The translations under genes were made by a program, and so were the position numbers. Below, piece after piece: positions 1 to 2,990 of a DNA stretch of 20,566 nt. The notes below the pieces were generated by a model, which saw only the letters and a program-made list of their open reading frames with translations, had not been told where the DNA came from and did not search any database. Every line of letters starts with the position of its first letter. Position 1 is the first letter of the stretch. The stretch covers positions 1 through 20,566 of the IMG/VR virus record IMGVR_UViG_3300020573_000306. One strand, written 5' to 3'. Source of the stretch: a virus.

Positions 1-2990
1 CCCATACCACCCATACCATCAGTTGGGGCGCCATAAACTTGTTGAAGTGTTTTATCTTTATTAAGAATAAACCCTTTCTCTTGTTTGATGAGTTGTTCAT
101 TTGTCAAGATATCATCTTCGCTTAATTGTAGATATCTAGTCATAATAAAACGTTTAGCTAAATACGGAATCGCGTCGGCTTGTGAAGCCATTGATAATAA
201 GGTACTATCGATATCTGCTTGTTGATATTTTTTATAATTAGATGGTTTAGGTAATTTTAATTGATATAATGTATCATCAATATTAATATTACATGAAAAT
301 AAGAATTTTTTAAATTCTTCATCTAATGTATTTTCTATATAAACTTGTAATCGCTCAATAAATTTAGCGAATTGCTGTTCTTCTACGTAAGCTGCGCCAA
401 CTTTACCATCATTAAATATTGCATTATTTTGTCCGGGTTTCATCCAAGAAATCGGAACCCGCAATCCACGTAAAACTTTATCTGAAAAATATTCTAAATC
501 AGATTGTTCACCTAATTGTGAATTTTTTGTAAATATACCACACGATAAACTAAATGTATGATAATTATGGTATTTTTCTTCTTGATCGATAGTTAATGTT
601 CCAACATCCATAGATTGATCCAAAACTGTATAATCTAGTATTTGCAATCCGTGAATATGACTCACACTAATTAAATGTTCAATATTTGTGTAACCTAATT
701 CATTTGATATTTTATCTAGATGAGTAATACTGATATTGCCATCAATTGCTTCATTGCAGATAGCTTGATATAAAACAACGAAATTATAATGATATTGAAG
801 ATTTAATGATTCTAATAACATAGATATTCTATGATCGCCGTACGCCATAGGTATATTTAACATTAGTAATTGTTCCATTACTAATTTTTCAGCGGACATC
901 GTAGTTTCATTAACTTCTATATTTAAAGTTTCAATAACTCTATTTAATTCTTTTTTCGTAATATATTCTAACCGTAGCATATCTAATAATCGAATATCGT
1001 TACATAATCTAGTTAATAATTGATCTCTATTATTAGTTACTTCAACTATAAGTTTAATATACCGAACAATTTCTGATAAATCATTTGGTAATAATCTTAA
1101 AATTTCGCGCGCTTCATAAACTACATCATTATACGAATCAAATTCTTCAATTGCTATAAATTTACTAGATATAAATATTTTTGCATTATGATCATAAATT
1201 GCAGACTCGCCATACTTATGATTATTATTGCCTATAATAATATCATCAAATGTTAAATTCGACGCTTCAACGAAACCTTTACCCCAAACTGGAAATTTAT
1301 GATCCGGCGTACAAATAACGGTTTGATTATTAGTTAATGTTAAAGAAACAACCCCTACATCTTTCTGAGTAACACCAGCCCAAGAAATAACACCAGGTCT
1401 AACTTTACCAGTAATCGGATCACAACTATAAGTATAATTAACTATACCATTATTAAAATCATCAATCAATTCACTTAATGTTTTAGTTATACCATCCATT
1501 AAATCAATTTTTGTATCTAACGATAAACACCCACCAGGTAAAACTTCAACTTTGCTACCAATACCATCAGATTTTTGAGCAATAAAAATATCTTCTAATG
1601 ATGAGTTTTTAACATAAATCCCAGCGCCGACCGCAAAGGTATGAAAATTATGTATTTTTTCTTCTTGATCTATCGTTAAAGTACCGACGTCTATTAAATC
1701 ATCTAATTTTGTAATTTTAGTAATTGCACCGATCGGATCAATTATCGACGATCTATCATCTTCAATGTATTGATATAATAAATCAGCTAATTGCAAATCA
1801 ACGGCTTGAACAAAACCTTTACCTCTTACTGGAATTTTATGATCAGGTGTACATATTAATGTATTACCATTTTCAAAAGTTAATTCTATAACATCAGTGC
1901 ATTTTCTAGTAATACCAGCCCAAGAAATTATACCGGGAGCTGTTTCACCAGTATTAGGATTAATTGAAAAAGCCCATAATTGTTTACCAGATTCAAATTC
2001 ATCAATAATTTCATATAGTGGTATAGTTCTACCATCTAATAATGGAATAAGAGTATCTAATGCTAAACAATGGGGGTTATATATTGAATCGACCGTACTT
2101 TGCCCTAACATATTTTGGCTAGGTATTTTTTTCTGGCGAATTTCGTTTTTAAATGTTTCCAAATAAGTTTTTATACGATTATTCGGCATAGTACCAACAT
2201 CAACATAAAAAACACGTCGTTCTGGCGCTCGTTGAACTCGGTAAATAACTATAGCATCTTCTAATAATTCTTTTTGTTTATGCGATTTATAAACCGTTCT
2301 CAAAACCGATTCACCAAATGGTGCGCTATCTGACATATCGTCATTAATAGAAAAAACGACTAATTCGTCTGCCGGAATTACTTCAGTTTCTTGCATATCA
2401 ACTGGTTTAAAACTTGAACCGCCCGGAACTCCAGTAGAAGCAGTTGGTGATTTAGAATGCGATCTTACTTGATATGCAACTATTTTAGTTACGTCGTCTG
2501 CATTAACTACTGCGCCTATAATATCACCGGCCGGCAACCACTCCCATTTTTTATAATCCGATCTTTTTCTAAAAAAACAATCGCCGTATTTGACCATATT
2601 TCTAGATAATTTAAATAATCGATTATCATTAAACCCATGTATATCAGTCCAATGTCTTAATGCGGTCCGCAAAGTAAGAACTAAAGTATCATCTAACTCT
2701 TGACCATTATCGGATCGGATATCTAAATCAATCGGTAAATCAGTTGTTATATTTCTACCAGTTATTTCTTCAGCAATAATATCTAATGCACGAGCAACTT
2801 CAACATCATTATCCATTGCATTATATTCATTATATCTAGATAATCGGGTAGCACTACCTTGAATTAAACGAAGATACCAAGTTACGTTACTAGACGTTGC
2901 AAATCCTTGGTCGATGAATTGATTATCGCTAACAAACACATTTGATTGTTGGGGCGAAACAATTTTATAAAAATCGGTAATTTTTGCCAT
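1..2990 (-). CDS. 20: T4 gp20-like portal protein, interrupted by two inteins (partial, 3' end off window)
   Basis: The portal forms the dodecameric ring at the capsid vertex through which DNA is packaged and to which the tail joins. Reading leftward from ATG 2990, the frame stays open to the window edge (996 codons plus two bases). The extein portions match T4 gp20: an N-terminal 307 residues that include FYVDVGTMPNNR, a 25-residue middle piece ending VEVLPGG (T4 has VDTLPG at the same place), and a C-terminal part with SDKVLRGLRVPISWM and FAKFIERLQ. Two inteins interrupt it at residues 308-462 and 488-823. The last extein segment visible is 173 residues, so the true C-terminus lies outside. 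No clear Shine-Dalgarno precedes the ATG. The gene starts 11 bases after the stop of the gp51-like frame, so it is probably cotranscribed with gp26 and dnaJ. Family assignment is strong; splicing is inferred from intact intein motifs. Confidence 0.95.
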   Translation of the reverse strand, partial: MAKITDFYKIVSPQQSNVFVSDNQFIDQGFATSSNVTWYLRLIQGSATRLSRYNEYNAMDNDVEVARALDIIAEEITGRNITTDLPIDLDIRSDNGQELDDTLVLTLRTALRHWTDIHGFNDNRLFKLSRNMVKYGDCFFRKRSDYKKWEWLPAGDIIGAVVNADDVTKIVAYQVRSHSKSPTASTGVPGGSSFKPVDMQETEVIPADELVVFSINDDMSDSAPFGESVLRTVYKSHKQKELLEDAIVIYRVQRAPERRVFYVDVGTMPNNRIKTYLETFKNEIRQKKIPSQNMLGQSTVDSIYNPHCLALDTLIPLLDGRTIPLYEIIDEFESGKQLWAFSINPNTGETAPGIISWAGITRKCTDVIELTFENGNTLICTPDHKIPVRGKGFVQAVDLQLADLLYQYIEDDRSSIIDPIGAITKITKLDDLIDVGTLTIDQEEKIHNFHTFAVGAGIYVKNSSLEDIFIAQKSDGIGSKVEVLPGGCLSLDTKIDLMDGITKTLSELIDDFNNGIVNYTYSCDPITGKVRPGVISWAGVTQKDVGVVSLTLTNNQTVICTPDHKFPVWGKGFVEASNLTFDDIIIGNNNHKYGESAIYDHNAKIFISSKFIAIEEFDSYNDVVYEAREILRLLPNDLSEIVRYIKLIVEVTNNRDQLLTRLCNDIRLLDMLRLEYITKKELNRVIETLNIEVNETTMSAEKLVMEQLLMLNIPMAYGDHRISMLLESLNLQYHYNFVVLYQAICNEAIDGNISITHLDKISNELGYTNIEHLISVSHIHGLQILDYTVLDQSMDVGTLTIDQEEKYHNYHTFSLSCGIFTKNSQLGEQSDLEYFSDKVLRGLRVPISWMKPGQNNAIFNDGKVGAAYVEEQQFAKFIERLQVYIENTLDEEFKKFLFSCNINIDDTLYQLKLPKPSNYKKYQQADIDSTLLSMASQADAIPYLAKRFIMTRYLQLSEDDILTNEQLIKQEKGFILNKDKTLQQVYGAPTDGMGGM
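522..1529 (-). other. Portal intein 2 (336 residues, unidentified insert domain)
   Basis: This is a second intein in the same gene, inserted after VEVLPGG and before Ser (SQLGEQSDLEYF). Block A starts with Cys1 (CLSLDTKIDLMDG). Block B is TVICTPDHKFPVWGKG. Block F ends HTFSLSCGIFTKN, again with Lys before the terminal Asn and Ser as the +1 residue. It shares long near-identical stretches with intein 1, for example SWAGVTQK versus SWAGITRK and VGTLTIDQEEK in both. The roughly 180 extra residues between blocks B and F look mostly helical and show no LAGLIDADG, HNH or GIY-YIG motif that I can recognise. The insert is therefore either a degenerate endonuclease or an unknown domain. Confidence 0.92.
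1605..2069 (-). other. Portal intein 1 (155-residue mini-intein)
   Basis: This in-frame insertion between portal residues His307 and Ser has the hallmarks of a self-splicing intein. It starts with Cys1 in block A (CLALDTLIPLLDG). Block B follows (TLICTPDHKIPVRGKG), with the TxxH motif appearing as TPDH. Block F (HNFHTFAVGAGIYVKN) ends in Asn. The +1 extein residue is Ser. The residue before the terminal Asn is Lys rather than the usual His. At 155 residues it is a mini-intein with no room for a homing endonuclease. The insertion lies just before the conserved portal segment SSLEDIF, aligned with T4 MTEDYW. It is clearly paralogous to portal intein 2. Confidence 0.93.

Follow-up and report, generated by a model that had tools for sequence, protein, structure and literature searches.

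The portal gene at the edge of this viral contig encodes two inteins which, judged by comparison with their relatives, would be two independently acquired alleles of one portal-associated HNH-intein family, each at its own hereditary site in a T4-type portal and each most likely splicing in cis, a reading to which we assign a probability of roughly 0.87. In the window, i.e. the whole stretch of 20566 nt that was analysed, the sequence-only reading had placed two inteins 25 residues apart at positions 522-2069; re-derivation of the boundaries returned exactly this location, with inteins of 155 and 336 aa. The positions of the portal gene and its parts are given in Table 1.

Table 1 Portal gene, exteins and inteins in the window, with T4 gp20 numbering where aligned; an oblique marks an intein insertion point here and in the text
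Feature	Position	Strand	Remarks
Portal gene, T4 gp20-like, encoding a precursor that contains two inteins	3-2990	minus	Runs past the edge of the window at its C-terminal end
N-extein, ends ...STVDSIYNPH	2070-2990	minus	Its final residue aligns with T4 residue 328
Intein 1, site A (T4 328/329), 155-aa mini-intein, aa 308-462	1605-2069	minus	Cys1, TPDH, terminal Lys-Asn, +1 Ser
Spacer extein SSLEDIFIAQKSDGIGSKVEVLPGG, 25 residues, amino acids between the inteins	1530-1604	minus	Equivalent of T4 329-353, with the inner clip loop and the beginning of the channel loop
Intein 2, site C (T4 353/354), 336 aa, aa 488-823	522-1529	minus	Cys1, TPDH, terminal Lys-Asn, +1 Ser
N-terminal splicing block of intein 2 (98 aa)	1236-1529	minus	52% identity with the N block of intein 1
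Intein 2 insert, ~198 aa	642-1235	minus	Probably decayed endonuclease insert
C-terminal splicing block of intein 2 (40 aa)	522-641	minus	63% identity with the C block of intein 1
C-extein, starts SQLGEQSDLEYF	3-521	minus	Channel loop into stem helix

The identity of the host gene and the presence of two intein domains were established by profile searches. The portal open reading frame matched the Pfam family Portal_T4 (PF07230, E=4.6e-68), with the profile running over the extein, as well as PHROG 213 (3.3e-73), and is thus a T4 gp20-type portal. The intein profiles Intein_splicing (PF14890) and TIGR01445 each matched this frame in two stretches, with 53.5 bits (cut-off 35.8) and 61 bits (cut-off 24.5) respectively, so that Pfam and NCBIfam detect both the portal and the intein domains without recourse to the alignments of the present analysis. 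In addition, three further IMG/VR contigs (four in all) are 100% identical to the intein-bearing portal region across 7,990 bp, indicating that the twin-intein arrangement is not a one-off assembly error, and the complete portal gene is present in L170-L172 as a 1,057-codon open frame from stop to stop, or ~1,049 aa from the Met. When the exteins are joined at the predicted junctions they match the length of relatives with empty sites, which read LPGG/QSLGEM at site C in L176 and VYNPQ/SQLED at site A in L174. The clip domain of T4 gp20 comprises residues 279-358 and its channel loop residues 350-359 (PMC4493910).

Given the closeness of the two inteins, both to one another in the gene and in sequence, we examined how they are related. 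Their N blocks are identical at 51/98 positions (52%; BLASTP E=4e-34) and their C blocks at 25/40 (62.5%; E=1e-14), amounting to 55.9% identity over both splicing blocks, and at this level the inteins are homologous beyond doubt. The sequence-only reading had proposed that one intein was duplicated or jumped to a second conserved site in the same gene. Relatives were collected from viral contigs by six scans with inteins or intein alignments and one with the N-extein, and profiles of the N- and C-splicing blocks were used to extract 172 inteins from 151 non-redundant proteins. The 22 inteins nearest to intein 1 by identity (59-66%) all occupy site A in other phages, and the four nearest to intein 2 (65-70%) all occupy site C. 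Recent in-gene duplicates would be each other's closest relatives, and inteins 1 and 2 are not: each is nearer to same-site inteins elsewhere (up to 66% and 65-70%) than to its partner (56%), which, as far as relatedness goes, is the pattern that the earlier proposal had itself named as speaking against it. Trees built from 136 alignment columns, with bootstraps that had not settled, gave the same picture: with 93 rows intein 1 grouped with the site-A inteins of L176 and L189 (98/84, 97/91) and intein 2 with the site-C inteins of L173, L174, L175 and L189 (100/99), and a 148-row tree was concordant, with support of 96/86 for the intein 1 clade and 100/98 for the intein 2 clade.

The DNA of the two inteins likewise argues against recent copying, as dS is ~0.89 and the longest shared word is 15 nt. 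Among the close phages L174, L175 and L176, which have 65-70% identity in the N-extein, the first two carry a site-C intein only, whereas L176/L177 has a site-A intein only, of 472 aa and with a weak HNH match; L189/L019 has both, and L173/L061 combines a site-C intein with one at a third site. This distribution indicates that the site-A and site-C inteins were gained or lost separately. If inteins were commonly copied within a gene, co-resident inteins might show an excess of similarity, and we therefore compared the 21 co-resident pairs available from multi-intein genes (27 of the 151 portal genes have two or three inteins) with inteins at the corresponding two sites drawn across genomes. 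Their similarity lies at a mean percentile of 0.44 of the cross-genome pairs, with the pair in the window at percentile 0.81 (A-C permutation P=0.815); in these 21 pairs there was no sign that co-resident inteins are kept different, as would avoid cross-splicing, or kept alike.

Taken together, these observations make it improbable that one intein was copied to the other conserved site during the descent of this gene, even though the two belong to one family, lie 75 bp apart, resemble each other most in their C blocks and have counterparts elsewhere in the family that did shift site (L240, L081 and L229; see below). Constraining inteins 1 and 2 together lowered lnL by 43 and gave a borderline AU test (p=0.055), on which we take a recent duplication as refuted and an older common origin as unproven either way. 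Any jump between the two would at most predate the split of these phage clades. The earlier proposal thus holds in part: the inteins are homologous and the family has switched sites in the portal gene several times, but this pair appears not to have been made by duplication or jumping here. Its two sequence marks, the string VGTLTIDQEEK and the Lys before the terminal Asn, do occur in both inteins but are family-wide features rather than a signature of the pair, the Lys being present in 111/162 members and the string lying near the family consensus, VGTLTIDxDExYHxYHTF; the site-C intein of L189 carries the identical VGTLTIDQEEK. Recent gene conversion between the C blocks, as the shared TIDQEEK might suggest, was considered and rejected, given the synonymous codon differences before GATCAAGAAGAAAAA and the near-consensus nature of the motif.

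The two inteins differ in their apparent histories. Intein 1 and the L184 intein share 66% identity, whereas the whole portals of these phages are 36% identical and the local segment 55%, a disparity that suggests lateral movement at site A, the clip-domain site. Intein 1 contains no HNH endonuclease in its 155 aa by Pfam search. Its AlphaFold model (pLDDT 92.7) has a predicted HINT fold, and comparison with solved structures by Foldseek returned inteins (DnaB and NrdJ-1) as the best PDB matches, with TM scores of 0.77-0.83. Intein 2 is 65-70% identical to the members of its own clade, and the whole exteins of the same phages are 67-68% identical. Divergence of an intein clade by about as much as its portals is expected of vertical descent, and intein 2 appears, from these identities, to have been inherited vertically along with its host clade. 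Pfam found no HNH domain in the intein 2 insert, which has clear similarity to inserts of L174, L175 and L189 only and weak similarity to those of L083 (4.6e-5) and L068; the latter suggests that it is probably an endonuclease region in decay. An AlphaFold prediction of intein 2 from five homologues had a pLDDT of 45, too low to use.

Since the inteins are so alike, it had also been suggested that the N-half of intein 1 might pair with the C-half of intein 2 and excise everything between, giving an alternative functional portal without the 25-residue extein. The halves are indeed ~53-63% identical and Cys1, Asn and +1 Ser are intact in both inteins. The product, however, would be without T4 residues 329-353. 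With these would go the beginning of the channel loop as well as two inner-clip-loop residues, R338 and K342, whose replacement by Ala abolishes packaging (PMC4493910), so that a functional alternative portal lacking these residues and part of the channel loop is very unlikely. Moreover, double or triple occupancy is found in 27/151 genes, yet there was no sign that co-resident inteins have diverged so as to avoid crosstalk or been kept alike so as to use it. A low-level cross-spliced product arising as an error is possible.

The residues that would support ordinary splicing in cis are present throughout. Cys1 is found in both inteins and in 171/172 members of the family, and the block B motif TxxH, nearly universal in the family, is TPDH in both inteins as in 147/172 of the members. 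Both end in Asn followed by a +1 Ser, where the family has Asn in 161/162 and +1 Ser or Thr in 162/162. The penultimate residue is the exception, as it is Lys and not His in both inteins; Lys is the commonest residue here in the family and His is found in 5/162. A penultimate His is usual in class 1 inteins but not obligatory. Splicing without it is documented in a reference cited by PMC4031507, as far as can be judged from that citation. It is extremely unlikely that one or both inteins are dead, with the portal inactive or supplied from elsewhere, for although neither has an HNH endonuclease and both have the penultimate Lys, the frame is open, the catalytic residues are intact, the sequence is identical in four contigs, that Lys is the commonest residue of its position in the family, splicing without the usual His is on record as just cited, and a phage should not survive with an unspliced insert in the DNA channel loop of a structural protein that it cannot do without. 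In the preferred reading of two alleles splicing in cis, each intein would excise itself by means of Cys1, TxxH, the terminal Asn and Ser+1, and the two splicing events would make clip domain and channel loop whole again ahead of assembly of the twelve-subunit portal. Homing would once have placed the ancestors of both inteins; as neither now has a recognisable endonuclease, neither should home by itself.

To place the pair in context, we mapped the insertion sites of the whole family. All 172 inteins extracted from viral contigs lie in portal genes, at eleven sites within 42 residues (T4 gp20 316-357), in a collection gathered by similarity to portal inteins and from loci chosen for having an intein. 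The occupied sites in T4 numbering are 316, 319, 320, 328 (63 inteins), 330, 332, 339, 341, 353 (78 inteins), 354 and 357, and this segment corresponds to the clip domain and channel loop. The similar intein of L091, also in a T4-type portal, apparently marks one more site, past T4 357 and, as judged by eye, close to the tunnel loop. On the tree the site label changes 19 times as against 66 when shuffled, and the nearest neighbour shares the site for 92/104 splicing domains and 93/104 inserts. Insertion sites in these trees are hereditary, yet several moves from one site to a neighbouring one have support: the site-330 intein of L240 is nested in the site-A clade (100/88), the site-354 intein of L081 lies within a site-C group and the site-319 intein of L229 adjoins the site-C intein of L013 (98/85). 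HNH domains are found in full-length relatives, e.g. L027, L217 and L222, and the HNH-bearing insert of L176 has 126 matches, to inserts at many other sites, indicating that whole elements, endonuclease included, are homologous between sites. Mini-inteins make up 10/38 of the inteins in multi-intein genes and 18/124 of the others, which is not a significant difference (P=0.14). Inteins of another type were also seen in two of these portals, L079 and L086, where a LAGLIDADG-bearing intein lies upstream of the family intein (in L086 it ends before TRAPERR), and the portal of an uncultured huge phage (L403, LR756508) has three inteins by eye.

Occupancy of site C goes along with a change of the residue that follows it. 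Ser stands at +1 in 74/74 occupied genes, as against 3/67 empty ones, most of which have Gln or Glu (P=5e-37 in a test without correction for relatedness), indicating that the intein brings its own nucleophile and alters a channel-loop residue. Four queries against 50,697 phage records returned no close family members, the matches being weak and confined to other genes or to uncultured huge phages, and we found no description of these T4-like portal inteins in the openly accessible literature, although one may exist beyond it. Inteins 1 and 2 would, on the preferred reading, be separately acquired members of a large and apparently undescribed insert family. A wider proposal, that a single HNH-intein lineage has specialised on the portals of T4-like and jumbo phages and moved repeatedly, by 1 to 41 residues, within the clip/channel-loop segment, with its own +1 Ser overwriting a channel-loop residue, has in our view about an even chance of being correct. 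If the lineage is so specialised, it would provide a natural series for the gain of a new insertion site, a step that site-specific homing leaves unexplained. The family offers many close, separately occupied sites at which to ask how inteins change site, and it also bears on how homing introduces the required +1 residue into a functional loop and on how a ring protein accommodates one, two or three obligatory rounds of splicing.

Inteins in general, clusters of intein sites in MCM and TerL, and phage portal inteins are already known (PMC10643990, PMC5050341), and there is precedent for a pair of inteins in a single gene. The haloarchaeal MCM inteins a-d (PMC10643990) resemble the portal family in occupying several close sites in an essential DNA-threading ring protein, where two inteins can co-reside, and at MCM-d the +1 residue is always Ser if the site is occupied and mostly Pro if it is empty, which parallels the Ser as against Gln/Glu of the portal. 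MCM differs in having four sites, as against eleven within 42 residues for one intein family in the portal, which is moreover a phage structural protein; the two portal inteins of the window also lack any recognisable endonuclease. The mycobacteriophage TerL and portal inteins (PMC5050341) likewise have phage packaging proteins as hosts, with five sites in TerL1, but the portal inteins among them number six and occur in cluster C1 mycobacteriophages. Among solved structures NrdJ-1 (PDB 8ubs) is the top sequence-profile match of intein 1 (E=6.7e-12) as well as being close in fold, although it is a split intein in another gene with ~21% identity in the structural alignment; mini-inteins with such a match may merit testing as splicing tools. 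The nearest cellular relatives found were GyrB inteins from CPR, DPANN and Omnitrophota genomes, inserted at VEGDSAGG/C (the gene being named from this motif, by eye), and these differ from the portal inteins in being mostly 25-40% identical, in another gene and at one site. Many inteins at VEGDSAGG/C, again GyrB by motif, are included in L091-L169, from the species-genome collection.

The window contains further inteins outside the portal gene. A uvsW-like helicase has a split intein (14898-15191 and 16411-16515, plus strand), the N-half of which follows VVVDE and is terminated by a stop, whereas the C-half starts a separate open reading frame and ends SN/CHGSKA. The ~1.2 kb between the halves holds three small open reading frames, and within this gap lies an Asn/Gly-rich repetitive frame with NGNNGNSNN repeats (15480-15700, plus strand). 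The break in the uvsW-like gene is also present in the relative G004 (the L019 contig), with an N-part 49% and a C-part 66% identical and ~300 bp between them. A second intein of the uvsW-like gene (13623-14654, plus strand; 344 aa) lies in the P-loop, GTGFGK/AQPLYC...THN/TILN, starts with Ala and by eye resembles a class 3 intein. In addition, the window encodes a DnaJ (Hsp40) protein with J, zinc-finger and C-terminal domains close to the portal gene (4038-5057, minus strand), an adenylylsulphate-kinase-like protein (7811-8431, plus strand) and a member of the 6-pyruvoyl-tetrahydropterin-synthase (PTPS) family (10172-10753, plus strand).
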